Origin: Rhizorhabdus dicambivorans
Lineage (GTDB): Bacteria > Pseudomonadota > Alphaproteobacteria > Sphingomonadales > Sphingomonadaceae
Assembly: GCF_002355275.1 (NCBI RefSeq)
Contig: NZ_CP023449.1
Coordinates: 1,528,001 to 1,592,000, forward strand
Length of the DNA: 64,000 nt
Reading direction: 5' to 3'
In this document: positions 2,148-33,768 of the stretch, piece after piece
Numbering within the stretch: the first letter of the stretch is position 1
Layout of the letters: the number at the start of each line of letters is the position of its first letter
The notes under the pieces: generated by a model
Told to the model about the DNA's origin: nothing
Databases searched by the model: none
What the model saw: only the letters and a program-made list of their open reading frames with translations
Program-made: the position numbers and the translations under genes

Positions 2148-2207
2148 CCTTCCCAGCTCGCCGACGTCAGCGAAATCCGGCGCGCCGCCGATTCTGAAGG
2201 TGCATCG

Positions 2208-3098: not shown

Positions 3099-3649
3099 TG
3101 ATGGGTTCTCTTGCTCTCGCACTGCCGGCCGGCATGGGCCAGGTGGCGTGTCAGGTAGGATGCGAAGGATCGAAGCGCACGAACCTGCCAGGCACGCTCG
3201 GCGCCCGGGCGCCACAGGACGATTTCCGCATGGCCATAGACAGTCCGCGTGGCCCGGCCCGGGGGGAAGCTGGCGTCCGCGAGGTCGAGCGGGCAGCCCG
3301 CCGCAAGCACTTGGGCGGCATTGTCCCCGGATAGCTCCCATGCGAGTTCGCGGTCGGAGATCTCGACGAGCGAAAGCGGTGTGGAGCGGGCCAGGGCGGC
3401 GAGGCCATCCGCGGCGTCGGCCGTCTGCGCGATCAGCAGCCACTCGTCGGGTCCGAGTTTTAGGGCGTGCCGCCCGTCGCGCGACGAACTGGCGAGCGGG
3501 GCGAGGTCCAGCGGCGCCTGCCAGGCTGCCGATGCCTCCTCGATCGCCTGCGCGCGGAGACGCAGCGCCCATTGGTGCCCCGGTGCCAGCGGACGGAACG
3601 GGAGACCCGTTCCGGCCAGATGTCCGATCGGCTTGTCGGTATCATGCAT
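3095..3649 (-). CDS. soxG: Sarcosine oxidase gamma subunit
   Basis: A 184-residue protein matching the small gamma subunit of heterotetrameric sarcosine oxidase in size and place. Visible features are the GcvT/SoxG-like strand [14 protein letters not shown], then [29 protein letters not shown] written here in part as [20 protein letters not shown], and the ending [20 protein letters not shown] 3649 is chosen over the longer open frame to 3823 because it overlaps the soxA stop by 8 bp and the upstream extension is arginine/serine-rich shadow sequence. The stop overlaps the purU start by 4 bp, so translation is probably coupled. The subunit has no known catalytic residues of its own; it stabilises the oxidase complex. 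Confidence 0.9.
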
Positions 3650-6608: not shown

Positions 6609-6892
6609 TGTCCGCACTCCAGCGGCGGTCGCGGCGTGCCGGCGGGGTAGCTTCCCGAGAAGATGTTGGTCACGGTGTGGCGCAAGGCGTTGAAGTAACG
6701 GCGGCAGCCATGGACATGATGCCAGCGTTCGGCATGGTGGCCCGCGGGATTGCTGCGCTCATAAAGATAGGCCGCCCAGGCCGCGTCGTCGAGCGACGCC
6801 GGATCGAGCGGGCGGCTGATATGGGCCTCACCCGCATAGCGGAATTCGATCTCGGGGCGGGGCCCGCAAAACGGACATTCGATAACCAGCAT
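6605..6892 (-). CDS. soxD: Sarcosine oxidase delta subunit
   Basis: A 95-residue zinc-binding delta subunit. The N-terminal MLVIECPFCGPRPEIEFRYAGEA carries the CPxCG motif, and the later residues WHHVHGCRRYFNALRHT provide the conserved His and Cys that complete the zinc site in the family. Length is typical, at about 90-110 residues. The gene lies 10 bp downstream of soxB and overlaps soxA by 4 bp (ATGA), giving the canonical soxB-D-A-G order. A very short gene, but the cysteine motif and its position make the call firm. Confidence 0.95.
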   Translation of the reverse strand: MLVIECPFCGPRPEIEFRYAGEAHISRPLDPASLDDAAWAAYLYERSNPAGHHAERWHHVHGCRRYFNALRHTVTNIFSGSYPAGTPRPPLECGQ

Positions 6893-6902
6893 CGGGGCCT
6901 CC

Positions 6903-8153
6903 TCAGTGCGCGACCGCCGCCGCCGCCGCCTCGTTGATCAACCGTCCGCTGACGAAGCGATCCAGGGAGAAGGGCGCTGCGATCGGGTGTGGTTTCCCGG
7001 TGGCGAGGATGTGGGCGAAGACGTGCCCGGAGCCTGGCGTGGCCTTGAAGCCGCCGGTGCCCCAGCCGCAATTAGCGTAAAGACCGGGCACGGGTGTGGC
7101 ACCGATGATCGGCGACCGATCTGGCGTGAGGTCGACGATCCCGCCCCAGTTGCGCAGCATCCGCATCCGCGCGAACTGGGGGAACAGCTCGCAGACCGCC
7201 TCGACGGCCTGGGCGGTAACGTGCGCGCTTCCGGCCTGGCCATAGCCGGCATAGGCGTCCGATCCCGCGCCGATGACGAGCTCGCCCTTGTCGGACTGGC
7301 TGACATAGCCGTGCACGGTGTTGGACATGACCACGCAGTCGAGCACCGGTTTCGTGGGCTCGGAGACGAGGGCCTGCAGGGGATAGCTCTCGATGGGCAG
7401 CCGCACGTCGGCCATCGCCATCACCTGGGAGCTGCGGCCGGCGGTAACGACCCCGATCTTCCCGGCGCCTATGAACCCGCGGGAGGTTTCGACGCCGGTG
7501 ACCGCGCCATCGGCACCCCGCCGGATTCCGGTCACCATGCAATTCTCGATGATGTCGACGCCTCGCGCACTCGCCGCGCGGGCGTAGCCCCAGGCGACCG
7601 CGTCGTGCCTTGCCGTGCCTCCGGATCTCTGCAGGGCCGCGCCGACGATCGGATAGCGGGCATCGCGCGACATGTTGAGTCCGGGGCAGAATTCCGCGAC
7701 CTGCTGTCGCGACAGCCAATGATTGTCGATGCCGTTGAGTCGATTGGCGTGGACGTGCCGCTTGATGGATTGAATGTCGTGTACGGTGTGGGCCAACATC
7801 AGCACGCCGCGGGGGCTGAACATGACGTTGTAGTTGAGGTCCTGACTCAGGTTCCGCCACAGCTGAAGCGCATGATCGTAAAGCGCCGCGCTTTCATCGA
7901 ACAGATAGTTGGATCGAATGATCGTCGTGTTCCGGCCCGTATTGCCGCCGCCGATCCAGCCCTTTTCGACCACCGCAACGTTCGTGATGCCGTGTTCCTT
8001 GGCGAGATAGTAGGCGGTCGCCAGGCCATGACCGCCACCGCCTATGATGACGATGTCGTAGCACTGCCGCGGTTCCGCCTTCCGCCACTGTTGCGGATAT
8101 GCGGTTTGGCCGTTGAACGCGCTCCGCAAAAGGGTGAGGGCCGAGAATCTCAT
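6903..8153 (-). CDS. soxB: Sarcosine oxidase beta subunit
   Basis: A 416-residue flavoprotein subunit with the FAD-binding motif DIVIIGGGGHGLATAYYLAK starting near residue 33. The segment GGTARHDAVAWGYARAA contains the histidine that covalently binds FMN in heterotetrameric sarcosine oxidases. The C-terminus has NWGGIVDLTPDRSPIIG and GLYANCGWGTGGFKATPGSG, as expected for DAO-fold amine oxidases. It is the first gene of the minus-strand run soxB-D-A-G-purU-sdaA-regulator. The 187 bp upstream (8154-8340) should hold the operon promoter; a -10-like TATACT lies at 8194-8189 on the minus strand without a convincing -35. Confidence 0.96.
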   Translation of the reverse strand: MRFSALTLLRSAFNGQTAYPQQWRKAEPRQCYDIVIIGGGGHGLATAYYLAKEHGITNVAVVEKGWIGGGNTGRNTTIIRSNYLFDESAALYDHALQLWRNLSQDLNYNVMFSPRGVLMLAHTVHDIQSIKRHVHANRLNGIDNHWLSRQQVAEFCPGLNMSRDARYPIVGAALQRSGGTARHDAVAWGYARAASARGVDIIENCMVTGIRRGADGAVTGVETSRGFIGAGKIGVVTAGRSSQVMAMADVRLPIESYPLQALVSEPTKPVLDCVVMSNTVHGYVSQSDKGELVIGAGSDAYAGYGQAGSAHVTAQAVEAVCELFPQFARMRMLRNWGGIVDLTPDRSPIIGATPVPGLYANCGWGTGGFKATPGSGHVFAHILATGKPHPIAAPFSLDRFVSGRLINEAAAAAVAH

Positions 8154-8233
8154 GCGGCGACCTTTCCACCGGACCGCTATTCAAGCATAGTATAAACGAG
8201 GCATGTGATCGTATATTTCGGACAATGGTTATT

Positions 8234-8261
8234 CGGTCGGCCCGCGTCCGGGAGCCGACCG
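8234..8261. promoter_or_regulatory. Inverted repeat upstream of soxB (possible operator or terminator)
   Basis: Perfect 8-bp arms CGGTCGGC (8234-8241) and GCCGACCG (8254-8261) flank a 12-bp spacer. It lies 81 bp upstream of soxB and 80 bp downstream of the ligase gene that ends at 8341. No run of U residues follows the hairpin on the minus strand, so an intrinsic terminator is not well supported. An operator for a sox regulator is equally possible. Nothing else is evident in 8154-8340 except the weak -10-like box near 8190. Confidence 0.3.
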
Positions 8262-8340
8262 GAGGCTTCGATGGAAGGCATGTTCGTCACCTCGGACCAA
8301 ATCGCCGACGGGCATCGCCTGAGCATCGTCCGATCCCGGT

Positions 8341-9876
8341 TCAGCCCTCCTCGGTTTGCCGGTGCTCGAACAGTTCCCGCACGGCCTGTAGTCCCACCTT
8401 CATCGAGGCGGTGCGGGGCAGCTCGTCGACCCGGATGAATTCGGCCGGTATCTGGTAGGGGAGCAGCATTTCCCTGAGGAATTTCCGCAGATCGGCGACC
8501 GAAGGCGGCGTCGTCCCGGGTTTCAATGCATAGGCCGCAGCGGGCACCTGCCCCAATCGCCTGTCGGCGATGCCCACCACCGCGGCCTCGCGGATTGCCG
8601 GGTGGCGTTCGATCGCTTCGGCGACGGAGTGGGGTTGGATCTTGAAGCCGCCGCGTATGATGGTGGCATCCGCCCTGCCCTTGATCCAGAGGAAGCCGTC
8701 CTTATCGAGCACGGCCAGGTCCGTCGTCGCGGTCCAGCTATCCGGATCGCCGATCTGCGAGCCCTTGAGTTCGAGGATGCCCTCCTCACCGGTCGCGAGG
8801 ACCTCGCCGCCGACGGCCGTGATCCGCGCTTCCACGCCGGGATTGAGCCGGCCGACTGCCCCGCGCTTTTCGGGCCAATAAGCCTTGAAGTCGTCCAAGG
8901 TCCAGCCTGCCACGCCGCCGAGTTCCGTGGCGCCGTAGTTCTGGAGGACGGGAATGCCGTAGGTCTGCCAGAACTCGTCGGCGAGCGCGGGGTCCAGGGG
9001 TGCTGCGCCGGTGCGATAGGCGACGAGACTGGAGAGATCCTCCTTCGGTATCCTTGCGGCAAGCACCATGGCGAGTCCGGCCGGCGGCGTCTGCACCACC
9101 TTCGGCCGGTGCCTTTTGACGGCGTCCTGGAATTCGGAGACCTCGAACTTTTCGAGGACGCAGGTCTTCCGACCCGCGAGTAGTGCGTTCAGCAGGGCCA
9201 GGAGACCGCCGATATGCGCGAAGGGCGTCAGCAGGAGCTGGGTGCTCGGACGCAGCCGGGGGGAGTCGTCCTTGCTGCGACCGGCCTCGAACTTGGCGGC
9301 GCCGAGTATCGACTGCGCGAAACGCGAGCGTCTGAGGGGGATGCGCTTTGGCGCACCCGTGGTGCCGCTCGTCAGCATCTCGACCGCAATCCCCGGCGCG
9401 AGGCTGTTGAAGTCGTCGAGACGATCAGGGGACAGGCGCTGCAGCAGTTGGACGCATCCGCCAACCTCTTCGCTGAGCTCTATGCACAGCGCACCGCTTT
9501 CGAGCCCGGCCTCCCTTACCTCGCTGCGCGCCCAGTCCACCGAGGAAGCGACGATGACCGGCAGCTTCAGCTTCGAGATATCGGCGCGGAGGGCTGCGTC
9601 CGGCAGGGTCGGGTTGAGCGTGACCAAGCATCTCCCCGTCGCCACGGCGGCGAGGACGGCGGGGATGACCTCCGGCCGGTTCCGCAGGATCACTCCAACC
9701 CTTATGTCGGGGCCGAGGCCTGCCTGGCTGATCGCTTCCTCGATCGCTTGTTTCCGCGCCCTGAGAGTGCCCCACGTCCACCATTGGCGGCGGAACTCGA
9801 CTGCCTCCTGTTCGGGCGCGATATCGAGGATCGCGTCGAGGCTCGCCCTCATCTGCTCGGCTGCATTGGCCGTCAT
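8341..9876 (-). CDS. Acyl-CoA synthetase (AMP-forming, ANL superfamily)
   Basis: A 511-residue adenylate-forming acid:CoA ligase. Motifs in order: P-loop EMLTSGTTGAPKRIPL near residue 168, adenine-binding NYGATELGG near 315, the TTDLAVLDKDGFLWIKGRAD hinge region near 385, and a C-terminal lysine in ASMKVGLQ where the catalytic lysine belongs. The hinge reads GRADATIIRGGFKIQP. It would activate a carboxylic acid to its CoA thioester. It is 11 bp downstream of an acyl-CoA dehydrogenase gene and shares its strand, so a ligase-dehydrogenase operon is likely. The acid is unknown; fatty, terpenoid or steroid side-chain acids all fit the family. Confidence 0.88.
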   Translation of the reverse strand: MTANAAEQMRASLDAILDIAPEQEAVEFRRQWWTWGTLRARKQAIEEAISQAGLGPDIRVGVILRNRPEVIPAVLAAVATGRCLVTLNPTLPDAALRADISKLKLPVIVASSVDWARSEVREAGLESGALCIELSEEVGGCVQLLQRLSPDRLDDFNSLAPGIAVEMLTSGTTGAPKRIPLRRSRFAQSILGAAKFEAGRSKDDSPRLRPSTQLLLTPFAHIGGLLALLNALLAGRKTCVLEKFEVSEFQDAVKRHRPKVVQTPPAGLAMVLAARIPKEDLSSLVAYRTGAAPLDPALADEFWQTYGIPVLQNYGATELGGVAGWTLDDFKAYWPEKRGAVGRLNPGVEARITAVGGEVLATGEEGILELKGSQIGDPDSWTATTDLAVLDKDGFLWIKGRADATIIRGGFKIQPHSVAEAIERHPAIREAAVVGIADRRLGQVPAAAYALKPGTTPPSVADLRKFLREMLLPYQIPAEFIRVDELPRTASMKVGLQAVRELFEHRQTEEG

Positions 9877-9887
9877 GCTGATCGTCC

Positions 9888-10958
9888 TCAGGTCAATGGG
9901 CGGGGAAGGGCGGCGGCCCTTGCGCGCAGCCGTGTGGGCGATGAGAGCGTCATTCGATCATGCATCGCGCGCTTGAGCAGAAGGTGCAGGGGGTATTCCC
10001 AGGTGTAGCCGATGCCACCATGCGCCTCGACGGCGGCGCGCGCCGTCTTTACCGCGACGTCGGTCGCGTGAGCCTTGGCCAGCGCCGCGGACCAGGGCGC
10101 TTCCGGTGCGGGCGTGTCCCAGGCGTGGGCGGCGAACCAGCAGAAATAACGGACCGGATCGATATCCACGGCCATGTTGGCGAGGGCGTGCTTGATGGCC
10201 TGGAAGGCACCGATCGGGCGCCCGAACTGGACCCTGGTCTTGGCGTACTCGGTCGAAAGCTCCAGTGCGGCCGAGCCGGCACCGGCGGCGTCGATGGCCC
10301 CGAGGATCATCAACGCGTCATAAAGTCTCCAGGCGGCCTGGCGGTCCCCCGCCCGCTCGGCACCAGCCATTTGAAGCGTTACGCCGGCGTGAGGCCGCGA
10401 GGCGTCCAGTGGCGGGAAAGGGCTGACGTGGAGTTCGGCACGATCGCTCGGCACGACGAAAAGGCCGTCCTGAAGGCCGACTATGAAGAGGTCTGCATCG
10501 CCCGCGCCTTCGACGCAACGCTTGGTCACCTGGCCGTCTGTGGATGTCATTCTCCACTCGTCAGGGCTCCATATGTCGGAGGTCTCGCTGAAGGCGAATG
10601 CGACCCTGGCGTCGCCGGTCAGCAGCGCGTCGAGCCACCGCTGCCTGCTCCCGTCGGAACCGTAGGTGGCGATGGTCCAGGCCCCGACGGCGCTTCTGAT
10701 CTTCGACGTGGGGGCAGCATGGCGCCCGAGCGCTTCGGCCACCACCGACAGGGTCAAGAGGCCCATGCCCAGACCACCGTCTTTCTCAGCCGTGAGGATC
10801 GCCGGAACCCCGAGCGACGTCAGTTCGACGTCCAGCGCATTGGCTATCGCGGGGACTTCTTCGCTGCGCGTCAGGATGTTTCCGCTGAGCTTGTCGGCCA
10901 GCAGCCGCTCGATGGCGTCTGCGAACTGCTTCTGCTCGTCTGTGAGGTCGAAATGCAT
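9888..10958 (-). CDS. Acyl-CoA dehydrogenase, short member of an adjacent pair
   Basis: A 356-residue acyl-CoA dehydrogenase family protein. It starts MHFDLTDEQKQFADAIERLL at ATG 10958; the frame stays open upstream but enters the neighbouring gene. Recognisable parts are the N-terminal helical domain, RVAFAFSETSDIWSPDE (the FAD/substrate loop, less canonical than TEPGAGSD), and the C-terminal FGRPIGAFQAIKHALANMAV and AHGGIGYTWEYPLHLLLKRA. The divergent middle domain and the close partner upstream resemble the alpha2beta2 dehydrogenases of steroid side-chain degradation, where two different subunits share the active sites. The pairing is inferred from 5-bp spacing and subunit types. Confidence 0.88.
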   Translation of the reverse strand: MHFDLTDEQKQFADAIERLLADKLSGNILTRSEEVPAIANALDVELTSLGVPAILTAEKDGGLGMGLLTLSVVAEALGRHAAPTSKIRSAVGAWTIATYGSDGSRQRWLDALLTGDARVAFAFSETSDIWSPDEWRMTSTDGQVTKRCVEGAGDADLFIVGLQDGLFVVPSDRAELHVSPFPPLDASRPHAGVTLQMAGAERAGDRQAAWRLYDALMILGAIDAAGAGSAALELSTEYAKTRVQFGRPIGAFQAIKHALANMAVDIDPVRYFCWFAAHAWDTPAPEAPWSAALAKAHATDVAVKTARAAVEAHGGIGYTWEYPLHLLLKRAMHDRMTLSSPTRLRARAAALPRPLT

Positions 10959-10963
10959 GGGTC

Positions 10964-12148
10964 CTAGATTGCCTCGTCCTTCGGGAGGCCGAGCCCACGC
11001 TCGGCGATGATGTTGCGCTGGATGTTGGAAGCGCCGCCGGCGATCGAGAGCGCGAGCGATCCGAATATCTGGTTCACCCACTGGCCCGGATCGCGGCGGG
11101 TCGTCTCGCCGTGGTTGGCCAGCTCGAGCGCGCGGTCCCCGATGATGTCCTGGGCGACCTGGGCGATCTCGAGCGCGATCCGCGTTCCCGCGATCTTGTT
11201 GAGCAAGGGCAGTCTCCCGGCCGACCCGCCTGCCACGGCCTGTGCGAACTGGTAGTAGCCGCAGCAAAGCTGGGCCTGGACATAGCCTTCCAGGACCATC
11301 ATCCGATCGCGGATCTGCGGATCCTCGGCGGCGGGTCTTCCGTCTATTTCAACGTTCCTCGCCAGTCGCCACAGCGACTCCAGGAGGCCGAGCGTGCGCA
11401 CGCCGCCGATGTTGCTCCGCTCGTGCTTGAGCGTGGTCTTGGATATCTGCCAGCCGCTGCCGCGCCCCCCGACGATCCAGTCGGCCGGCGTGCGCGCGTC
11501 TTCGAAGAACACCTCGCAGAACTCCGACTGGCCGGTGATCTGATGGATCGTGCGGATGGAGATGCCCGGCTGGTCCAACTCCAGGAGGAGGTAGGAGATA
11601 CCGGCGTGCTTGCCCGCATCCGGCTCGGTCCGCACGAGGGCGAACATGTGGGTGGCGCTATAGGCCTGGCTGGTCCAGATCTTCTGACCGTTGATGATCC
11701 ACTGCCCGTCTTCCAGACGGCCGTTGGTCTTGAGAGAGGCGAGATCGCTGCCCGCGCCCGGTTCCGAATATCCCTGCGCCCAGCGATATTCGCCCAGGAT
11801 CGTCTTGGGGATGAACCACTGCCTCTGCTCCTCGGTACCATGCTCCAGCAGGGTCGGGATCAGCATCGACATGCCGGCGCCCGGCACTTCCATCGGCGCG
11901 CGCGCCTTCTCGAAGCATTCGCGGATGATCCGCCCGCGCATGGGATCCGCAGGCTGCTCCGAACCGCCATAGGCCTTGGGGATGGAGCGGTACAGATAGC
12001 CTAGCTCAGTGGCGAGGAGGCGGAATTCGCGGACGAGCCCCGCGTCCGGCCTGCCCTTGGCGGGAAGGCGGTTCTTCCAGGCTTCATCGAGGAAGGTCTG
12101 CACCTCCTCGACGAATGCCATATCGTTCTTGGAATATCCTAAGTCCAT
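10964..12148 (-). CDS. Acyl-CoA dehydrogenase, long member of an adjacent pair
   Basis: A 394-residue acyl-CoA dehydrogenase with the canonical flavin loop GYSEPGAGSDLASLKTNG, then INGQKIWTSQAYSATHMF, and the ending IAGGASNIQRNIIAERGLGL. The usual GGTSEIQ is GGASNIQ here, with Asn replacing Glu. The start is ATG 12148. Together with the next gene downstream, 5 bp away, it probably forms a heteromeric dehydrogenase that introduces a 2,3-double bond into a CoA ester made by the ligase at 8341-9876. Confidence 0.92.
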   Translation of the reverse strand: MDLGYSKNDMAFVEEVQTFLDEAWKNRLPAKGRPDAGLVREFRLLATELGYLYRSIPKAYGGSEQPADPMRGRIIRECFEKARAPMEVPGAGMSMLIPTLLEHGTEEQRQWFIPKTILGEYRWAQGYSEPGAGSDLASLKTNGRLEDGQWIINGQKIWTSQAYSATHMFALVRTEPDAGKHAGISYLLLELDQPGISIRTIHQITGQSEFCEVFFEDARTPADWIVGGRGSGWQISKTTLKHERSNIGGVRTLGLLESLWRLARNVEIDGRPAAEDPQIRDRMMVLEGYVQAQLCCGYYQFAQAVAGGSAGRLPLLNKIAGTRIALEIAQVAQDIIGDRALELANHGETTRRDPGQWVNQIFGSLALSIAGGASNIQRNIIAERGLGLPKDEAI

Positions 12149-12187
12149 GATTCACCAAAGATTTGTGCGCGATATATTGGTCGCGGC

Positions 12188-12628
12188 CTACCAGGATCCG
12201 ATGTTGGGCATCGACGCCCAGGGTTCCTGCGCTTGCAGCGGGGCGCCGGTCTGCAACAGCTCCACCGAGATGTCGTCGGGCGACCTGACGAACGCCATCT
12301 TGCCGTCTCGCGGCGGGCGATGGAGCACGACTCCATGATCGAGAAGTCGCCGGCAGGTGGCGTAGATGTCGTCGACGGCGAATGCGATATGCCCGAAATT
12401 GCGTCCACCCGAGTAGGTTTCGGCGTCCCAGTTGTGGGTAAGTTCGATCATCGGCGACCTCACCGCCCGCGCGGCCTCGCTGTCCTGTGGGGCCGCGAGG
12501 AAGACCAGGGTGAACCGGCCGGCAGGCGCCTCGTGCCTCTCCATCTCTTCCAGTCCGAGCGCGTCCCGATAGAAGGAGAGGGACTCCTCCAGGTCTCGCA
12601 CCCGCACCATGGTGTGGAGGAATTTCAC
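12188..12628 (-). CDS. gloA: Glyoxalase I-like VOC protein
   Basis: A VOC-fold protein of 146 residues if started at GTG 12628; the frame continues to ATG 12676. The GTG start is preferred because it puts the first metal histidine at residue 5 (VKFLHTMVRV), as in E. coli GloA, and because AAAGGG lies upstream. The four expected metal ligands are visible: His5, Glu62 in PMIELTHNW, His80 in NFGHIAFAVDD, and a Glu in DISVELLQTG. It could be lactoylglutathione lyase, detoxifying methylglyoxal, or a related lyase. It lies 39 bp upstream of the acyl-CoA dehydrogenase pair on the same strand, which hints at a role in that pathway instead. Confidence 0.75.
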   Translation of the reverse strand: MKFLHTMVRVRDLEESLSFYRDALGLEEMERHEAPAGRFTLVFLAAPQDSEAARAVRSPMIELTHNWDAETYSGGRNFGHIAFAVDDIYATCRRLLDHGVVLHRPPRDGKMAFVRSPDDISVELLQTGAPLQAQEPWASMPNIGSW

Positions 12629-12969
12629 CGCGACCCTTTCCCATCCTGTCCGCCCGGGGCTGAGCAGCCTCGACATCCGTTCGCGCAGTCCGCTGCCGAA
12701 CTTCCGGCCGGCGCGAGATGGCGATCACGGGGCGGGGCGCTCGGGGCGGCTGCACTTGGCAGCTTCTTCGCACGCACCATCCGCGGCAATTAGTGTGAAA
12801 AATCTTCCGGACGGACCAAGCACGCACTTCACGGCTCGCGGTCCAGCTGCACTTATCGTCTGCGCTGCACATGACGGCTCGCCGCCCCCGATGCTCAACC
12901 TGTCAGGCCTGGGCATCGGCAATTCGCCACGCGCCCGTCCGAAAATTGTTGCGAAACGGAGATCTGGGA

Positions 12970-14226
12970 ATGGCGACGGACGGAATGATCCTTGGACAGA
13001 TCACCGACGAGTCCGTCGCGCTGATGCGGCAACGGATCGGATTTCCCAATCCCACCCTGCGTCACGGGTGGCTCGACAAGCCGCACAACATCTATGCGTC
13101 TTATGACGCGTTCCGCCGTTTCGCGATCTATGGCGGCAGCGACAATCCGTTCTTCATCGACGAGGATTATCCCAAGGCCACACGTTGGGGGGAAAGTATC
13201 GCGCCGCTCGGCTTCGAGGGCACCATGGGCCTCAAACGTCCCAAGCAGATGGATCCCGACTTCGAGCGCGCCACACGTAGCGCCTTGCGCGGTGTTCAGC
13301 TTTTCCATTCCGGCGGTGAGAATTACTATTACGCTCCGATAACGGGCGGTCAGCGGCTGTACGTCTCGAAATATGTGGAGGACGTTCAGGTCAAGACGTC
13401 CAGCTTCGGGGGCAAGTCCGTCGTCGTCGATAACGGCAAATGCTATTGGAACGACGACGACGTCGTACTGGTGCAGGGCACCGAGACCTTCGTGCACATC
13501 GAGCGCCGACGGTCTTCAGACCCGAGTGATAAGCCCCGGAAAAAGCCGGAACCGATCATCACGCGCTATTCCGACGAAGACCTGGCCGCCATCGACGCGG
13601 CTTACGACGCGGAGTTCCGGCGCGGATCGGACACTTGGTATATCGAGGACATCTCGGTCGGAATGCGGCTTCCCACCATGGTCAAGGGCCCGCTCACGAT
13701 CACCGATCTGATCAATCTTTTCATGGGCGCGGGGTGGTACTCCTACGGGGCTCCCCCGTTCAGGCTGGCCTATGAGAGCCGCAAGCTCCTTCGGGGCTTC
13801 TACTCCAGGAACGAATTCAACGCATGGGATGCCATCCAGCGGGTGCATTGGGAACCCGGTCTGGTCAAGGAGGTGGGAGTCGCCGGGATATACGACGTCG
13901 CGGTCATGCGGCAGGCGATGCTCAATCATTACTGCAACAACATAGCCGGTGACGATGCCTGGGTTTACCGGGTCAAATACGACCTGCGCAAATTCAACTA
14001 TATCGGTGACACGACCTGGATCCACGGCGTCGTGACCGAGGTGAGGGTGGACCCCGTGCTCGGGCCTGCGATCGAAGTGGATCTGGTCGGCATCAACCAG
14101 CGCGGCGAGGAAAATATCGGCGGTTCGGCGACGATCCTCGTCGCCTCGCGCCAGACCGGGCTGGCGAAGCTGCCGCCGCCGGTAAAGCCGACAGCCCATC
14201 GCGCCGACGACTGGCGGACCGTTTAG
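12970..14226 (+). CDS. Double-hotdog MaoC-type acyl-CoA dehydratase
   Basis: A 418-residue protein with two hotdog-like halves. The N-terminal half contains YDAFRRFAIYGGSDNPFFID, as in FAS1-type dehydratase domains, where such a loop leads the substrate helix. The C-terminal half starts near FIEDISVGMRLPTMVKGP after the acidic linker and contains GDTTWIHGVVTEVRVDP. ATG 12970 is chosen because GGAGAT precedes it; the open frame extends to 12871 without a ribosome site. It is divergent from the glyoxalase gene across about 340 bp that should hold promoters for both. It would hydrate the enoyl-CoA made by the nearby dehydrogenases, by inference. Confidence 0.8.
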   Translation: MATDGMILGQITDESVALMRQRIGFPNPTLRHGWLDKPHNIYASYDAFRRFAIYGGSDNPFFIDEDYPKATRWGESIAPLGFEGTMGLKRPKQMDPDFERATRSALRGVQLFHSGGENYYYAPITGGQRLYVSKYVEDVQVKTSSFGGKSVVVDNGKCYWNDDDVVLVQGTETFVHIERRRSSDPSDKPRKKPEPIITRYSDEDLAAIDAAYDAEFRRGSDTWYIEDISVGMRLPTMVKGPLTITDLINLFMGAGWYSYGAPPFRLAYESRKLLRGFYSRNEFNAWDAIQRVHWEPGLVKEVGVAGIYDVAVMRQAMLNHYCNNIAGDDAWVYRVKYDLRKFNYIGDTTWIHGVVTEVRVDPVLGPAIEVDLVGINQRGEENIGGSATILVASRQTGLAKLPPPVKPTAHRADDWRTV

Positions 14227-14271
14227 GTCCGTCGATCCCCGGCATCGGAATCCGCAAGAGACGAGAGAGAC

Positions 14272-15024
14272 ATGAACAAAGAGGCTTCAACATCGCTGTT
14301 CGCGCCCGGCGCCGCGCTCGTGGTTGGTGGCAGTGGTGGTCTAGGCACGGCAATAGCGACCAAGCTCGCCGGGTATGGCGCTCAGGTCGTAGTTTCGTAC
14401 CGTCGAGCGCGCGATGAGGCGCAGGGACTGGTCGATGCGATCCGCGGGGCGTCTGGAGAAGCGGAAGCCGTCGAACTCGACGTGCTGGACCCGGCGTCCG
14501 TGGCGCGGGGCATTGAACGGGCTGCCGATCTCTTCGGGGGGATTGGTACTCTGGTCTATGCGCCGGGAGGAAAGCCCAAATATGATTTCGTGAGCCGGGT
14601 GCCTCCGGAAGAGTGGCGCCGGATCTTTGAAATCGACGTCTTCGGGCTCGCCAATCTGCTCCATGCCTCGCTTCCCGAACTGCGCAAGTCCGCGGGCGCC
14701 ATCGTCGGCGTGACGACCTATCAGGGCGCGCACCTGGAGCCGCAGGGCGGTCTCTCGGCCGTCCCAAAGGCGGCGGCCGAACGTTTGCTCGCGGTGACGG
14801 CCAAGGAGGAGGGGCGCTATCAGGTGCGCTCGAACGCGGTGCGCGCGGGCTGGTTCGACAACCGCGGGGTCAAGAGGACCGACATCGCGACGGAGCAGGA
14901 GAGCCTCCTGGGCCGTCGCGGCCGGCCCGAGGAACTTGCGGAGGCGATCGCGTTCCTCGCATCCCGTCGGGCCAGCTTCGTGACGGGGGCCGTACTCACG
15001 GTGGATGGCGGCCAGAGCCTGTGA
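14272..15024 (+). CDS. Short-chain dehydrogenase-like protein without the catalytic tyrosine
   Basis: A 250-residue SDR with the Rossmann glycine motif as ALVVGGSGGLGTAIA, LDVLDP, the strand VYAPGG in place of NNAG, and a C-terminal FVTGAVLTVDGGQSL. The usual YxxxK reads SAVPK: Ser162 occupies the tyrosine position and Lys166 is kept. The catalytic serine region is VGVTTYQGA rather than an SS motif. The fold and cofactor site look intact, so it may bind NAD(P) yet work by different residues, or be non-catalytic. It follows the dehydratase gene by 45 bp, with GAGAGA just before the ATG. Confidence 0.85.
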   Translation: MNKEASTSLFAPGAALVVGGSGGLGTAIATKLAGYGAQVVVSYRRARDEAQGLVDAIRGASGEAEAVELDVLDPASVARGIERAADLFGGIGTLVYAPGGKPKYDFVSRVPPEEWRRIFEIDVFGLANLLHASLPELRKSAGAIVGVTTYQGAHLEPQGGLSAVPKAAAERLLAVTAKEEGRYQVRSNAVRAGWFDNRGVKRTDIATEQESLLGRRGRPEELAEAIAFLASRRASFVTGAVLTVDGGQSL

Positions 15025-15147
15025 CCCCGCGAAAGCGCCCTCATTCGCCATTCGTGTGCCTCAAGGCATCACAGGCCAAAAACGCATTACTCGCCGCAAG
15101 GTGCTACGGGTAACTCTGGCTCAAAGTTCGAATGCAAGAGTAGCGCC

Positions 15148-16145
15148 ATGGGAAGCAGGATTCTGGAAGACGCAGTTCACGAGCCCGTGCCGGCGGAGGG
15201 CATCGACGTCAGCGACCCCACCCTGTTCAGTCAGAACCGGCAGGGCGCGATCTTCGAGCGGCTGAGGCGCGACGACCCCGTGCACTATTGCGCCAGCAGC
15301 CCCTATGGGCCCTACTGGTCGGTGACGCGGTACAAGGACATCGTCGAGGTCGACAGCAATCATGGCGCCTTCTCGTCGGCGGGAGCCACCTCGCTGGATG
15401 AAACGCGGGCCAAGGGAGTGAGCGCCGACGCCACGCCTATCGGGGGTTTCCTTGGCATGGACCCACCCGATCACGATGTGCAGCGAAAGATCGTCTCTCC
15501 GGCGCTCGCGCCGAGCAATCTGGTGAAGTTCAGGGATCTGATCCGCGAGAGAACCCAGAACATCCTCGGCAATCTGCCGATCGACGAGGAGTTCGACTGG
15601 GCCAAGACGGTGTCGGTCGAATTGACCATGATGATGCTCGCCACTCTGTTGGGCTTCCCGTCAGCAGAGCGGCAGAGACTCAAGCGCTGGTCCGACATCA
15701 TCGCTGGCGTCCCTGGTGACGGCGTGGTCGAATCCTGGGAACAGCGGGATCGCGAATTAAAGGAGATGGCGCAGACGTTCCTCGAGTTGCGCGAGGAGAG
15801 AAGGGCGCAGGAGCCGGCATCCGACCTGCTTTCGATATTGGCCCACTCGCCTGAGGCGCGCGCGCTGAGCGATATGGAATTCGCGTCCAATGTCTCGATC
15901 CTGATCGTCGGCGGTAACGACACGACCAGGAACAGCATGTCGGCCACGGTCCTGGCATTTCATGACCATCCCGGCGAGTGGGCCAAGCTGAAGCAGGACC
16001 CGGCCCTTATCGAAAGCGCGGTTTCCGAGATAATTCGCTGGCATACGCCGATCATGTCGCAAGGACGGCGCGCCACGCGCGACTATGAACTGGGCGGGAA
16101 AAAGATCCGCAAGGGCGACAAGGTCATGATGTGGTACATTTCGGG
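15148..16145 (+). pseudogene. CYP153-like cytochrome P450, truncated by IS21 element
   Basis: About 332 residues of a cytochrome P450 remain. GMDPPDHDVQRKIVSPALAP, the I-helix IVGGNDTTRNSMS, and the K-helix EIIRW (Glu294, Arg297) followed by LGGKKIRKGDKVMMWYISG resemble CYP153 alkane/fatty-acid terminal hydroxylases. The native sequence stops at 16145, where the IS begins, and the frame then reads 24 foreign residues to a stop at 16218. The heme-binding cysteine loop is missing and is not found beyond the IS, so the product cannot be an active P450. The start ATG 15148 lies 123 bp after the SDR gene; the preceding sequence holds no obvious Shine-Dalgarno. Confidence 0.88.
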
Positions 16146-16172
16146 TGAGAACACCGGGAATAAAAGGGGCCA
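16146..16172 (+). repeat. IS21 left terminal inverted repeat
   Basis: The 27-bp left end starts TGAGAACACCGGGA and ends GGGGCCA. It matches the right end in about 20 of 27 positions. The box TAAAAGGGGCCA recurs downstream as TTAAAAAGGGGCCAGT at 16194-16209, which fits the multiple transposase-binding boxes of IS21 elements. Confidence 0.8.
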
Positions 16173-16245
16173 CGGATCGGCCAGTCTCACCGGATTAAAA
16201 AGGGGCCAGTCCTGCTAGACCTCCGTTTTTGGGCGGAGGTGGAGG

Positions 16246-17766
16246 ATGAAGAGAGTGGAGCTTTATCAGAAGGTCCGCCGCGCCGTGCTGATTGACGGGA
16301 TGAGCCGTCGCGCTGCCGCCCGGTATTTTGGGATCAATCGCAAGACCGTCGACAAGATGCTGTGCTTTCCAGAGCCAGCAGCGCACGGCCGGAGCGGGCA
16401 AACCTACAGCCGCAAGCTGTCCGGATTTACCGACATCATTGACCAAATCCTGGTGGATGACCGCAAGGTTCACATCAAACAGCGACACACTGCCGCGCGT
16501 ATTTTCGAGCGTCTGCGCGATGAACATGGCTTCACCGGCGGCATCACCATTGTTCGCGACTATGTGGCGGGCGCCAAGTTGCGCAGCCGCGAGGTGTTCA
16601 TACCATTGAGCCACAAGCCGGGGCATGCGCAGGTGGATTTTGGTGAGGCGGACGGGATCATCGACGGCAAGTTGGTGCGGTTCCACTATTTCTGCATGGA
16701 CCTGCCGCACAGCGATGCGCCGTTCGTTAAAGCCTATCCTGCCGAGGTGGCTGAGGCATTTTGCGAAGGGCACGTGGCGGCCTTTGCCTTCTTCGGCGGC
16801 ATCCCGCAGTCGATCCTGTATGACAACACCAAGCTGGCAGTGGCGCAGATCCTGGGCGACGGGAAGCGCGAGCGCAGCCGGATGTTCTCGACCCTCCAGA
16901 GCCATTACCTGTTCGAAGACAAATTCGGGCGCCCCGGCAAGGGTAACGACAAGGGCAAGGTCGAGGGGCTGGTCGGTTATTCCCGGCGCCACTTCATGGT
17001 GCCGAGGCCAGAGGCGCCCAGCTTTGATGCGCTGAACGCGCGCTTTGTCGAACAATGCATGGAGCGACGACAGGCCATCTTGCGCGGGCATGAGCGCAGC
17101 ATCGGTGACAGGCTGGTGGCTGATCTGGCGGCCTTTATGCCGCTACCGGCGGTGCCGTTCGATCCCTGCCATATGGTGACGGGGCGGGCCTCGTCGATGT
17201 CGCTGGTGCGCTATCGTACCAATGATTATTCGGTGCCGACGGCCTATGCCCACCAGGAGGTCGTAATCAAAGGCTATGTCGATCGGGTTGCGATCATCTG
17301 TGGCGGGGAGCTGATCGCAGTGCATCCGCGCAGCTATGAGCGGGAGGACTTCATTGCCAACCCGCTGCACTATCTGGCGCTGTTAGAACAGAAACCCCGC
17401 GCGCTTGATCAGGCAGCGCCGCTCGATGGCTGGGTGCTGGCTGAACCGATGCATCGCATCCGACGACTGATGGAGGCGCGCAGCGGCAAAGAGGGACGGC
17501 GCGAGTTCATCCAGGTGCTGCGGCTATGCGAACGCTTCGAGCAGTCCCTGGTGGAATGGGCAGTGGCCCGCGCGCTGGAGATGGGGGCAATCAGCTTCGA
17601 TGCGATCAAGATGATCGCGCTGGCCCGCCTCGAACAGCGTGTGCCGCGCCTCGATCTGCAATTTTACCCGCATTTGCCGCGCGCGAATGTCGGGCGTACC
17701 GATCCGCGCACCTACATGGGCCTGCTCTCGCAGGCAGGCACTCCAGCGACGGGAGTGGCAGCATGA
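16246..17766 (+). CDS. istA: IS21 transposase IstA
   Basis: A 506-residue IstA. An N-terminal helix-turn-helix (LIDGMSRRAAARYFGINRKT) is followed by the DDE catalytic core: Asp in HAQVDFGEADG, Asp in SILYDNTKLAV and Glu in DKGKVEGLVGY. Length is usual for the family. It would cut and join the element's ends, helped by IstB. Its stop overlaps the istB start (ATGA), so the two are translationally coupled. Confidence 0.96.
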   Translation: MKRVELYQKVRRAVLIDGMSRRAAARYFGINRKTVDKMLCFPEPAAHGRSGQTYSRKLSGFTDIIDQILVDDRKVHIKQRHTAARIFERLRDEHGFTGGITIVRDYVAGAKLRSREVFIPLSHKPGHAQVDFGEADGIIDGKLVRFHYFCMDLPHSDAPFVKAYPAEVAEAFCEGHVAAFAFFGGIPQSILYDNTKLAVAQILGDGKRERSRMFSTLQSHYLFEDKFGRPGKGNDKGKVEGLVGYSRRHFMVPRPEAPSFDALNARFVEQCMERRQAILRGHERSIGDRLVADLAAFMPLPAVPFDPCHMVTGRASSMSLVRYRTNDYSVPTAYAHQEVVIKGYVDRVAIICGGELIAVHPRSYEREDFIANPLHYLALLEQKPRALDQAAPLDGWVLAEPMHRIRRLMEARSGKEGRREFIQVLRLCERFEQSLVEWAVARALEMGAISFDAIKMIALARLEQRVPRLDLQFYPHLPRANVGRTDPRTYMGLLSQAGTPATGVAA

Positions 17767-18578
17767 GTGATCCCATGATGCCGCTGCCAGCCATCGAGGC
17801 CGAACCCACCAGCGTGCCGCCCGCTGTACTACTGGCCAACCATCTCAAAGCGCTCAAGCTGCCCACCTTTGTGCGCGAGTATGAGAAGGTCGCCTTCGAG
17901 GCCGCGCAGGATCGGGCCGATTACCCCCGCTATCTGCTGCGCCTGTGCGAACTTGAACGGATTGATCGCGAGCGCCGGATGGTGGAGCGCCGTATCCGCA
18001 TGGCTCGCTTCCCGCACACCAAGAGCTTTGACACCTTCGACTTTGCAGCCCAGCCATCACTGAACAAGGCCTTGGTTCTGGAACTGGCGCGCGGTGAATG
18101 GATCGAGCGGCGGCGTAATGTCATTGCGCTGGGCCCCAGCGGCACCGGTAAGACCCACACCGCCCTCGCGCTAGGACTGGCTGCGTGCCAGAAAGGGCAC
18201 AGCGTGGCCTTCACAACGGCCGCGGCGTTGGTCCATGACCTGATGGAGGCTCGCGACGAGCGTCGCTTGCGCAGCCTGCAAAAGCATCTGGCATCTGTAA
18301 AGCTGCTGATCCTCGACGAGTTGGGATATGTACCATTCACCGCCGTGGGCGGCGAGTTGCTGTTCGAGGTACTCAGCCAGCGCTATGAACGCGGCAGCAC
18401 GCTGATCACCAGCAATCTGCCCTTCGATGAATGGACATCGGTGTTCGGCTCCGAACGCCTGACCGGCGCCCTGCTCGACCGGCTGACACACCACGTCCAC
18501 ATTCTCGAGATGAATGGTGACAGCTTCCGTCTCGCCAGCAGCCGCAAGCGCCAGAAGGACAAGGGGGAGGATAAATGA
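17763..18578 (+). CDS. istB: IS21 ATP-binding helper protein IstB
   Basis: A 271-residue AAA+ ATPase related to DnaC. Walker A is GPSGTGKTH, Walker B is LLILDELGY, and sensor-like ITSNLPFDEW and ERLTGALLDRLTHH follow, as in IstB proteins. The start ATG 17763 overlaps the istA stop by 4 bp; a longer open frame upstream lies within istA. IstB assembles with IstA and target DNA to direct insertion. No damage is visible. Confidence 0.96.
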   Translation: MSDPMMPLPAIEAEPTSVPPAVLLANHLKALKLPTFVREYEKVAFEAAQDRADYPRYLLRLCELERIDRERRMVERRIRMARFPHTKSFDTFDFAAQPSLNKALVLELARGEWIERRRNVIALGPSGTGKTHTALALGLAACQKGHSVAFTTAAALVHDLMEARDERRLRSLQKHLASVKLLILDELGYVPFTAVGGELLFEVLSQRYERGSTLITSNLPFDEWTSVFGSERLTGALLDRLTHHVHILEMNGDSFRLASSRKRQKDKGEDK

Positions 18579-18714
18579 CCTAAGAACGGGCGGCCATCGG
18601 CAGCGGGAAATCGGCTTCCGCTCCGCTCCAGCCGCTTCCCCGCTGCCGATGCTGCCCAGCCTCAACCTTGGGGCTTTTTGTTCAAACCAACTGGCCCCAT
18701 TTTAAACCGGTGCC

Positions 18715-18741
18715 TGGCCCGTTTTTATCCCGGCGTTGACA
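18715..18741 (-). repeat. IS21 right terminal inverted repeat
   Basis: Read on the minus strand it starts TGTCAACGCCGGGATAAAAA and ends CGGGCCA, pairing with the left end at 16146-16172. A second box, CTGGCCCCATTTTAAA, lies inside at 18691-18706. The boundary at 18741 is set by the terminal CA. Confidence 0.78.
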
Positions 18742-19151
18742 CCGCCGGGATCCGATATTATATCGTGCTGCTTGCCGCGAGCGTTCCTCTCGCCGGCCTG
18801 ACTTTCAGTGTCCACAGCCCCTTGGTTTTCCTCGGACTGCTCGGGATTTTGCAGATCGTCGCGCTGCCCTTCATGCTGGTGATGAGCGCGTCGGTGATAT
18901 CCATTCTTCCAAATGCGCTCCGGGGGCAACTGACGGCGACATTCGGCTTCGTCATGAGCGTGGTCGGAACGGCCGCCAGCCCGGTCCTCGTCGGCGCGCT
19001 GACCGATTATGTTTTCGGGGACGATCAGAAGATCGGCCTCTCCCTCGCGATCATCACGTCGATCGGATGCGCGGGCTCGCTTATCGCTTTCTGGTGCAGT
19101 TTGCGGCCGTTGGTCGAACTCACGATCCGCAAAGACGGCGGCGCCGCGTAG
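18742..19151 (+). pseudogene. MFS transporter, 3' fragment next to IS21
   Basis: About 136 residues of the C-terminal end of a major facilitator transporter. Hydrophobic segments such as YYIVLLAASVPLAGLTF, FLGLLGILQIVALPF and LAIITSIGCAGSLIAF read as the last four or five membrane helices, with NALRGQLTATFGFVMSVVGT between them. The 5' part is gone. The open frame enters from the IS, where an ATG at 18678 could start a hybrid peptide. The matching 5' part is not elsewhere in the window. It is probably non-functional. Confidence 0.8.
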
Positions 19152-24542: not shown

Positions 24543-27155
24543 TCAGTAGTCGAACGACAAGCTCACACCGATCAGGCGCGGCTCGCCGAATTGCTGTGTA
24601 GAGAAACCGAGTGAATTGTGCAGCGGTGTGGCTGCAGTCTCGTAAATCTTGTTGAAGATGTTCCGGACAAAGACGCTGGCTACGATGTTCTTGATCCCCA
24701 GCGCGTCCTCCCAATCGACGCGGGCGTTGGCAATGCCGTAGCCGTTGATCGTTACCGAGTCCCGCGCGCCTTCACCGAAGATCTGGATGTAGCGGTTAGC
24801 GGCGGTGAGGCCATAAGACTTCGACTGATAGGTGTACTGGCCCGTGATCGAAACCGCTCCGTTGTCCCCCGAAAGGGGTATCTCATAGGTCGCGTTGAGG
24901 TTGACTTTGTGTTTCGGCGCGTTCTGGAACGGGTTGTCCGAAAGGTCTATGTTCGTGCCCACGGGCGCGGCCCCGTACGGGTCGGCTCCCACCCACTGGG
25001 TGTATTTGGCCTCGTTGTAGGAATAGTTCACGCCAAGCCTGAGGTCGGAGGTGGGAAGGACCGTCAGTTCGGCTTCGATGCCACGCAACTTGGCCTTCGC
25101 GACATTGGCGACGTAGGAGATCGCGGCACCGTTGACGATGGCCGTAAACGACCTCTGGATCCCCGAGTATCTCGCTTGGTAGCCGGCCAGGTTGAAGCGT
25201 CCGCTCGTGCCCCCAAGGTTGAAGTCCCATTTCACGCCGGCCTCAACATCCTTGATCGTCTCGGATCCGTACTGCAGCTGGAAGTTGGGTGCGCCGGCGG
25301 CGTTGGAGTTGTTCAGACCTCCGGGGACATAGCCCTTGCGCGTCGATACGTAGAGCAGGAGATCCGAAGTGGCTTTATAGTCGATCGAGAAGTTATAGTT
25401 CGTTCCGCTCGTTTTCAGGCTCTGGGTCGCGACTGGCGAAGGTGTCAGCGTGATGGTGCCGGTCGTCGTGTTGATTGTCACTATCGATGGCGAGATCACG
25501 CCGGTCAGGGGATGAATGCCCGCGGCCCGGGTGCGGAGGATGAAGTCATCCTTGGTGCGCCGGACGCCACCGGTCAGATGGAGCCCGTCGATCAACCCGT
25601 CGAGACCAAGCGTTGTCTGCCCGTAGAAAGCGCTCTGCTTGGAGCGCCCGCCTACCGTGAACGGCCTGCCTGCGGAGAAGCCGAGGTTGACAGCTGTCAC
25701 GCCGCCGAGCGTCTTTTGTACGCCGCCTACATCGGTCAGATCGGGGGTGCTCGGCGCGTGCTGGTAGTAATAGCCGCCCACGAATACCAGCCGGTCATCG
25801 AACAGGTTGCCCGACAATTGGGTTTCATTGGAATAGAACTTCTCCCCCTTGCCGGTGGAGATCACCGCCTTGGTGCCGGACTGGTTTCCGGCGAGGCCGG
25901 TACCAACGCCGACGTAGAGGTTCAGGAGTTCATCGATGCCGCCGACGTTGACGCCCGAATAGCCCTTCGTCGTCTGGTAGCCGAAGATATTCTTCAGCTG
26001 AAGCTGAAGCGGTCCCATATCGGGCAACGCGAGTTCAGTCCTGTTGACCAGCGTTTCGTGGGTATTCCGGTCCTGGAAGTAAGTGGTGTTGCCTGCATTG
26101 ACCCGGCGCAGTTCCTTGCCGCCCCGTGACACCCGTGTCACCTCGGCGTCCAAGGTGGCCTTCAGCGAAGCCAGGATGCCCAGCCGCTGCGCGGCACATG
26201 CGGGTACGCTGGACGCAAGCCCCACCGCGACGGCCTGGGCACAGATTCCGTTGAAGAACGGGGTGTTCGCCGGAAGGTTGAACAGGCCGAAGTTCCGGTT
26301 GTAGTCCAGGGCCAGATAAGCGCTGGATGCCTGGTCGGAGTGGAAACGATCGTAGATCGTCGTGTTCTTCAGCCAGCTGGTCGGCTCGAAAAGGACGCTG
26401 ATGCGCTGGGATTCATTGTTCAGTTCGTCCAGGCGCTTGTCGGAGCCGATGACCTTCGTATAGCCCCGCCGGTGGTTGTAATTGGCCGCGGCTCGCACGG
26501 CCAGGACGCCGTCGATGATGGGGACGCTGACTGCCAGGGTTCCCTGGAAGTAGCCCAGCGTTCCGACGCCAAGGCTGCCATTGGCTTTCACGTCATTGAG
26601 GTGCGGCGCGGCGGGCGTGACAAGCACGGCGCCCGCGGTGGTCGTGCGGCCGAACAGGGTGCCCTGCGGTCCCTTGAGGACCTGCACCGATTGCAGGTCG
26701 TACAGCGATTGCCCCGCGCTGCCGTCGTAACCGACGTTGTTGGTGGGGGTCGGGACTTCGGCGAAATAGGTGCCGACCGTGGGGGTTGTCGAGCTCTGGC
26801 CGGACAGGCCGCGCATGCCGTAGGTACCCCCGGTTCGTCCGAAGCGGCTGGCGACGCTCAGTGACGGAATCTTCTGCTGGAGATCGTTTTGATCACGCAC
26901 GTTCTCCGTCTTCAGCTGATCCTGCGTCATGACGCTGACGGCCTGTGGCACGTCCTGCAGCTTCTCCTCTCGCCGACGCGCGGTGACAACTATGTCGCCG
27001 ATGCCTGCCTCGACGGAGCGGGCTCCCTCCTCAGCGGATTGCGCCCTTGCCTCCGGTGCCATCAGCGCCAGCGCCAGGGTCGACGCCGTGGCAAGCTGGA
27101 GTGTGCGTCGATTGAAGTTGCCGCGCGGCGAATGTGGGTAGATCGAGCTTTTCAT
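24543..27155 (-). CDS. TonB-dependent outer-membrane receptor
   Basis: An 870-residue receptor without an STN domain. A signal peptide ends ALMAPEARAQ. The TonB box region is GDIVVTARRREEKLQDVPQA, and the plug contains VQVLKGPQGTLFGRTTTAGA. The barrel ends in LIGVSLSFDY with the terminal aromatic residue expected of BAM substrates. This architecture (IVVTARRREE and a GPQGTLFGR plug) is common in sphingomonads near catabolic genes. It is divergent from the flavoprotein gene at 27801 across a 645-bp gap, so the two may share regulation. The substrate is unknown. Confidence 0.94.
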   Translation of the reverse strand: MKSSIYPHSPRGNFNRRTLQLATASTLALALMAPEARAQSAEEGARSVEAGIGDIVVTARRREEKLQDVPQAVSVMTQDQLKTENVRDQNDLQQKIPSLSVASRFGRTGGTYGMRGLSGQSSTTPTVGTYFAEVPTPTNNVGYDGSAGQSLYDLQSVQVLKGPQGTLFGRTTTAGAVLVTPAAPHLNDVKANGSLGVGTLGYFQGTLAVSVPIIDGVLAVRAAANYNHRRGYTKVIGSDKRLDELNNESQRISVLFEPTSWLKNTTIYDRFHSDQASSAYLALDYNRNFGLFNLPANTPFFNGICAQAVAVGLASSVPACAAQRLGILASLKATLDAEVTRVSRGGKELRRVNAGNTTYFQDRNTHETLVNRTELALPDMGPLQLQLKNIFGYQTTKGYSGVNVGGIDELLNLYVGVGTGLAGNQSGTKAVISTGKGEKFYSNETQLSGNLFDDRLVFVGGYYYQHAPSTPDLTDVGGVQKTLGGVTAVNLGFSAGRPFTVGGRSKQSAFYGQTTLGLDGLIDGLHLTGGVRRTKDDFILRTRAAGIHPLTGVISPSIVTINTTTGTITLTPSPVATQSLKTSGTNYNFSIDYKATSDLLLYVSTRKGYVPGGLNNSNAAGAPNFQLQYGSETIKDVEAGVKWDFNLGGTSGRFNLAGYQARYSGIQRSFTAIVNGAAISYVANVAKAKLRGIEAELTVLPTSDLRLGVNYSYNEAKYTQWVGADPYGAAPVGTNIDLSDNPFQNAPKHKVNLNATYEIPLSGDNGAVSITGQYTYQSKSYGLTAANRYIQIFGEGARDSVTINGYGIANARVDWEDALGIKNIVASVFVRNIFNKIYETAATPLHNSLGFSTQQFGEPRLIGVSLSFDY

Positions 27156-27800
27156 TTTTCCCTCCCTATCTTTTTACTCTGACTATGTTCTTCGGCCAAT
27201 CGCCGCTACAGCGGTGGACCTGAATATGCGCAAGCCACCCGTGGCAACCTCGCCGAATGCGCAGGCAGGGGCGGATGTCCATCCATCTCGCCTCTTCCCT
27301 GGCAGCGCTTCGTTTCAGGGCGCGTACCGAGGCAGAAGGCAGGCGCGCCACTAAAGCTGAACAACTATGCTGGTGGCGATAAGTGTCTTTTTCCGGCCTC
27401 GGGTTCGCTTTTGTCCATTATGGCAGGGGGCGCTCCGTGGAGCGATCGAGTGTTGGTCGCCGAGCAGGAAGGAATGTGGCACCAATCGTTTCCACCTCGA
27501 CGCGCCATTCAGGGGAGTGGTCGCCCCTTCCCTCGGCGGCCGGCGGCTTGGGGACGAGTAGTGCTTACCGGCGAGGTATGAACCTCAATACGCATTAGTT
27601 TGCTCCCTCCGCCTATGCGACCAACGCCCGACAATGAGCGTCCGAGCTGTGTCCTCTGATTGAGGCGGATGTCCGCCAGAAGCGCGGGCTCGGGACGCTG
27701 CAAGCGGGGTGAGGTTGGTGGAAGTCGCGTACTATAAGAGCATCTCCGCACGATCGCGCGGGCAGGCGTGCCGCAACCCCTTCTGGAAAGGGGGCGTGGC
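27156..27800. other. Intergenic region between divergent genes, no gene seen
   Basis: This 645-bp gap separates the TonB receptor gene (minus) from the ketosteroid-dehydrogenase-like gene (plus). Short open frames here look like chance GC-rich frames. It holds a repeated 11-mer (GGCGGATGTCC at 27270-27280 and 27664-27674) and a TATAAG-like box at 27733-27738 without a matching -35. No coding remnant was recognised. Confidence 0.5.
27664..27677. promoter_or_regulatory. Palindrome GGCGGA-TG-TCCGCC, candidate operator
   Basis: Six-base arms with a two-base centre, 123 bp upstream of the flavoprotein start. The first 11 bases recur at 27270-27280 in the same gap, nearer the TonB receptor promoter. 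A regulator binding both promoters would explain the repetition, but no regulator gene lies beside the gap, and chance is not excluded in GC-rich DNA. Confidence 0.3.
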
Positions 27801-29471: not shown

Positions 29472-29546
29472 TCGCAGGAGACCGCGCCGCCACCACGGCC
29501 GCATTCCTTCAGATCCCACACCGTCCTGAATGTCAGGAGACAATAC

Positions 29547-30944: not shown

Positions 30945-30996
30945 GCGGTTCGCAGCGCAGGCCGCGCAATAGTCGGCGGCAACAGGAGGCAGGCGT

Positions 30997-32637: not shown

Positions 32638-32756
32638 GAGCGGACGAAAGAGGCCAACATCGAAGCCGAGTCTGCACGCGGCCAGCCCTGAAAGGCCTGG
32701 CCGTGGGAAAGATGGTCGCGGCGCATGCATTGATTTTTTGCGGAGCCTTGGACGCA

Positions 32757-33767: not shown

Positions 33768-33768
33768 T

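Follow-up and report, generated by a model that had tools for sequence, protein, structure and literature searches.

In a 64,000-nucleotide stretch of the Rhizorhabdus dicambivorans genome (the window, to which uncited positions refer), an insertion sequence (IS) of the IS21 family stands between the front of a CYP153-type cytochrome P450 gene and the tail of a gene for a transporter of the major facilitator superfamily (MFS). We regard this junction as very probably the scar of a local deletion mediated by the element, because both gene fragments abut the IS exactly, a target duplication is absent, and the DNA on the two sides matches, in colinear order, a single contig of the relative Sphingomonas tagetis MG17. 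The scar is an event of a known, ordinary kind. It illustrates how an IS21 burst can break a catabolic-looking cluster, with one P450 presumably killed, adjoining DNA lost, and an 84%-identical P450 remaining elsewhere in the genome.

Two gene fragments at the ends of the element

The homology between the window P450 and its S. tagetis counterpart reaches the final base before the IS (window position 16145, position 10998 of the S. tagetis locus L082) and stops there; the first base of the IS completes codon 333, and the frame goes on for 23 codons into the element, to 16218. Over residues 1-333 the fragment is 75% identical to the S. tagetis gene, which is whole at 417 residues and was the top match among the 28 loci found in a P450 search of genome contigs. 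In that gene the heme-cysteine motif, searched for with a pattern that we take to be the P450 signature, occupies residues 359-368; it is present there and in a paralogue within the host genome, and absent from the window frame. With the heme ligand lost, the fragment should, judging from its sequence, be dead. CYP153-like is a fair label since the S. tagetis relative finds its best match among solved structures in CYP153A7 (3rwl, 501 bits), while NCBIfam gave the window P450 no match above cutoff (best SolI, 312 of 850 bits). The original prediction of a CYP153-like P450 deprived of its heme-cysteine end from 16145 onwards is therefore sustained. The paralogue, at C1:4815621 (C1 to C5 being the contigs of this genome), is 84% identical to the broken gene, keeps the heme motif and may cover its role; downstream of it lies DNA that shares 77% identity with the alcohol dehydrogenase of S. 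tagetis. Across 14 genomes of the genus, the DNA search returned two P450 matches at E <= 1e-30, both in this genome.

On the other side of the IS, the alignment of the MFS fragment starts at its second residue and covers residues 319-443 of a relative's 457-residue frame, and several relatives of 30-41% identity align to it starting at residue 1 or 2. The gene, predicted to survive only as its last third after 18741, is thus a tail of about 30% with homology from the first codons past the IS. Because the fragment alone matches no model in Pfam or NCBIfam, its name rests on relatives, the aligned one being assigned by Pfam to MFS_1 (154 bits). Among 397 genomes drawn from the family, the search gave no close intact MFS gene, the best reaching 40% identity at E <= 1e-22, and the loss of the transporter front is therefore argued from distant relatives. 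Between the two fragments, the IS is flanked by TCGGG on the left and CCGCC on the right, and between these flanks no exact repeat of 3-12 bp occurs. Both parts of the earlier description, an IS21 element joining halves of two unrelated genes without a target duplication and flanks devoid of a matching direct repeat, agree with these observations.

Colinearity with Sphingomonas tagetis and the missing P450 end

Contig C16 of S. tagetis is colinear, in the same orientation, with both sides of the IS (blocks in Table 1), which, as far as sequence comparison goes, points to a local event. The gap between the colinear blocks measures 18.5 kb in S. tagetis versus 8.4 kb in the window, 2.6 kb of the latter being the IS itself. 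In S. tagetis the P450 is followed by genes for TauD, an amidohydrolase, an alcohol dehydrogenase, an aldehyde dehydrogenase, an enoyl-CoA hydratase, a nitronate monooxygenase and an AMP-ligase. Comparison with genomes carrying both genes uninterrupted had been proposed as a check on the original prediction; it succeeded for the P450, whole in a relative colinear on both sides of the scar, but not for the transporter. Some features of this comparison weigh against a plain local deletion. The S. tagetis locus is about 70-80% identical to this genome and shuffled relative to it, so that the comparison gives neither the ancestral interval nor the size of the loss, and the two loci do not stand to each other as a state before and a state after. 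The block of hydratase, nitronate monooxygenase and AMP-ligase genes is found in inverted order some distance upstream, about 30 kb from the scar (C1:1510651-1514218, L127), and other blocks are permuted. Moreover, C16 offers no DNA match to the MFS, ECF sigma, FecR and TonB genes that follow the IS on its right, and their translated matches there are weak (48 bits at most among the 25 best listed); DNA would therefore also have been gained or replaced.

The missing P450 end has been sought in the host's own genome. A DNA search with the part of the S. tagetis sequence beyond the cut placed such an end at four sites, where in each case it immediately continued a P450 match within an open frame of 425-482 residues; no orphan end appeared among the 40 of 384 first-look candidates that were scored, a coverage that a decayed remnant could escape, which also counts against deletion. 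In a comparison of the S. tagetis locus with 3.7-4 kb flanks of 20 IS copies (a 99% copy on C5 left out), the sole good match was the left flank of the window copy. One other match exceeded 80 bits (C2:128309, 87 bits, 38% over 101 residues) and fell in the aldehyde dehydrogenase region rather than in the P450 end, so that no P450 end was seen within about 4 kb of the other 19 compared copies. A scan of junction frames covered 30 frames from 15 of 19 stretches, that is, part of the sides of the copies. The prediction that the rest of the P450 and the transporter front have been lost is thus supported for the P450, whose end was neither within about 4 kb of another compared copy nor orphaned among the scored candidates, and for the MFS front by distant relatives only.

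Routes to the scar and competing explanations

Two routes could lead to a local deletion, and both fit the original prediction, which had named them together. Same-direction IS copies in the P450 and in the MFS gene may have recombined with loss of the intervening DNA, to which, within the deletion reading, we would give a little less than an even chance; alternatively, a single copy may have deleted adjoining DNA during transposition, with a probability that also falls somewhat short of even. Other routes take the modest remainder. The odds of recombination and adjacent deletion are about equal and the data do not separate the two; an adjacent deletion would start exactly at an IS end and have the original insertion site as one flank, and the homologies of both fragments do end exactly at the IS ends.

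Adjacent deletion has been described for related elements. ISPve1 of Paracoccus versutus, likewise an alphaproteobacterial member of the IS21 family, often inserts with one-sided deletions of 0.5-4.5 kb by its 5' end; 16% of clones carried insertions with deletion versus 7% with simple insertions (PMC3281130). Unlike the window element, which makes 5-bp duplications, ISPve1 makes 8-bp ones, and its deletions were caught as they occurred, whereas here the scar alone is left and does not tell the deleted side (PMC3281130). A further point against our interpretation is that such deletions were not given by the other members of the IS21 family in that work, including an ISPve1 isoform of 99% identity (PMC3281130). 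Tandem dimers of IS21 offer another likeness, in that adjoining DNA is deleted by an IS21-type element, according to a review (PMC9330008), but no such dimer was seen among the IS copies examined here. In Escherichia coli, duplications were absent from all 14 IS movements linked to deletions, and each of these was ascribed to an adjacent deletion (PMC11708052); that case differs in involving IS150, not IS21, in an evolution experiment with earlier time points. A literature search on IS21-linked deletion in sphingomonads found nothing, a statement that extends to that search only.

Within this genome, the duplications left by other copies bear on how the element behaves. An exact 5-bp repeat flanks five of the 19 identical copies (TCTCT, AGTGG, CCATC, ATGGC and ATAGC), against a chance of about 0.16% (0.00155) per flank pair, and therefore this IS does make duplications. 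The remaining 14, the window copy among them, have none and show 13 distinct left and 13 distinct right junctions, the number being 13 rather than 14 because an IS-bounded unit of 8,550-bp period occurs on both C1 and C2; the unit is identical at the two places (L015, 4790017-4801162, and L014, 119759-130904) and edged by two same-direction IS copies. Another IS21-type element, 2505 bp long, has an exact repeat at none of seven aligned copies, representing six distinct sites; these are seven of its eight places, the one on C4 (2497 bp) being omitted since its ends do not align, though by eye it likewise has no repeat. All these counts take exact repeats only and exclude near-repeats such as CATGG/CATCG, one base different, at IS copy C1:3965229, and they exclude two plasmid copies from outside the genome (H1, 100%; H2, 90%), neither with a repeat by eye. 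Base preferences beside the IS were weak and post hoc and have not been used. With 14 of 19 copies and all seven aligned copies of the second element without an exact duplication, it could be that the IS21-type elements of this host, like ISPve1 on occasion, mostly delete DNA as they insert; the majority of copies would then have lacked a duplication from the start, and the window scar would be one instance of a genome-wide mode of transposition coupled to deletion. We consider this unlikely. The reason for the lack of duplications at the majority of the identical copies would merit follow-up, and their high share makes the genome suited to asking whether IS21 deletes at insertion or through later recombination.

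Besides local deletion, the P450 front may have come to lie beside a foreign MFS tail through inversion or translocation between a pair of IS copies, with the reciprocal halves at another copy, now or formerly. Exchange between IS copies in this genome is well supported, a like event being deduced on C2. A transposon that is whole on C5 (L011, 29861-36567), with 45-bp inverted ends 93% alike, a 5-bp repeat AGTAT and an IS with repeat TCTCT inside it, is split on C2 between oppositely oriented IS copies at 128309 and 146001. The C2 halves end at TTGTT and its complement and bear two TCTCT sides, so that both 5-bp repeats are recoverable; inverting C2:130905-146000 would restore the transposon, and we infer an inversion between the two copies. 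For a set of 20 copies, every left flank was compared with the right flanks of all the others. Apart from the TCTCT set, the matches were two of 4 bp and GCTGG (left of C1:2809189, right of C1:3059987), where about 0.3 5-bp cross matches would be expected by chance (0.00155 per pair, about 182 ordered pairs). The GCTGG pair was rejected: joining its flanks leaves an ATPase-like fragment ending 8 residues beyond the join, and a 238-residue frame crossing the join in another reading frame was, without a family search, taken as non-coding.

The copy at C1:1708298 (L025, without a duplication) speaks for such an exchange and against a deletion. Its flanks are crosswise near those of the window copy, with one mismatch each (right CCGGG versus our left TCGGG, left ACGCC versus our right CCGCC), and in a post hoc simulation the chance of some copy being so near on both sides was about 1.7%; furthermore, it interrupts an MFS gene early in its length, the front part lying to the left of the copy. 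From these features an exchange could be suspected. However, its gene content does not fit, and on that ground it has been rejected as a partner. The longest frame to its right is an enoyl-CoA hydratase and not a P450 end; its MFS front reaches as far as model position 54, while on relatives common to both pieces our tail starts about 230 residues further along, which leaves a gap between the halves. Nor do the two pieces have the same best relative, the front scoring 74.7 bits with L067 (60.5 with L139) and our tail 95.1 bits with L139 (57.0 with L067). The likeness of the flanks is thus treated as chance, though it has slightly raised the odds that we give to an exchange and lowered those of a local deletion. 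The search for other IS copies with reciprocal flanks, suggested along with the original prediction, has in this way produced one near-reciprocal by flanks and none with the P450 end. As this end lies within about 4 kb of no other compared copy, and as both scar sides are colinear with a single contig of the relative, we consider an exchange improbable.

Misassembly is less probable still. Nineteen identical copies permit misjoins in principle, but the assembly has five contigs only, the P450 end that a misjoin should leave beside another copy is not seen within about 4 kb of those compared or as an orphan among the scored candidates, and the flanking blocks are colinear in the relative. Equally improbable is that the IS landed between two already decayed genes or inserted without a duplication, as duplication-free insertions alongside large rearrangements have been proposed (PMC11708052), since the homology of both fragments reaches the exact IS ends and independent decay is thereby disfavoured.

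The element, its copies and annotated features

The element itself has several marks of the IS21 family: an IstA of IS21 type, an overlapping IstB downstream (its ATG at 17763, the IstA stop at 17764-17766) and inverted ends bearing repeats. Members of this family have related inverted ends with several repeats and duplicate 4-8 bp of target. The ends here read TG...CA, the terminal A being present after all 19 identical copies. Duplications of 7 and 8 bp are given for three elements in the ISPve1 study (PMC3281130).

Table 1. Features of the junction and related loci (window positions unless a contig or locus is given)
Feature	Position	Strand	Basis
CYP153-type P450 front, residues 1-332 and two bases of codon 333	15148..16145	+	Pfam p450 47 bits; homology to S. 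tagetis gene
IS21-family element, 2596 bp, 1 of 19 identical full copies	16146..18741	+	
MFS transporter, last ~30%, truncated at IS edge	18742..19151	+	relatives of 30-41% identity
IstA transposase	16246..17766	+	NF033546 249 bits (cutoff 160); solved relatives 8q4d, 8b4h, 94-95 bits
IstB helper ATPase	17763..18578	+	NF038214 280 bits (cutoff 200); PF01695 250 bits
Two 21-nt repeats, 81% alike, IS left end	16152..16208	+	
Two 20-nt repeats, 80% alike, IS right end, inverted relative to left pair	18691..18733	+	
Left block, three pieces	2207..16145	not assigned	S. tagetis C16:1572-15431, 74-76% DNA identity
Right block, three pieces	24547..34941	not assigned	S. tagetis C16:33892-44018, 70-76% DNA identity
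C2 transposon halves	L014 128309-131053; L013 146001-152557		
Second IS21-type element (L128-L134)	C2:123221; C1:4795685, 3988486, 3437229, 3417243, 2654487, 1329314		

The genome carries 19 identical full-length copies, besides which C5 has the 99% copy and C4 a partial match, and the burst that produced the identical ones is apparently recent. Contig C1 comprises 5.03 Mb, and the four others, of 41-256 kb, are, from their size, probably plasmids. A copy 100% identical to the element also occurs on plasmid pNIN1 of Sphingobium sp. JS3065 (L136), a plasmid typed as conjugative, with no evident target repeat by eye.

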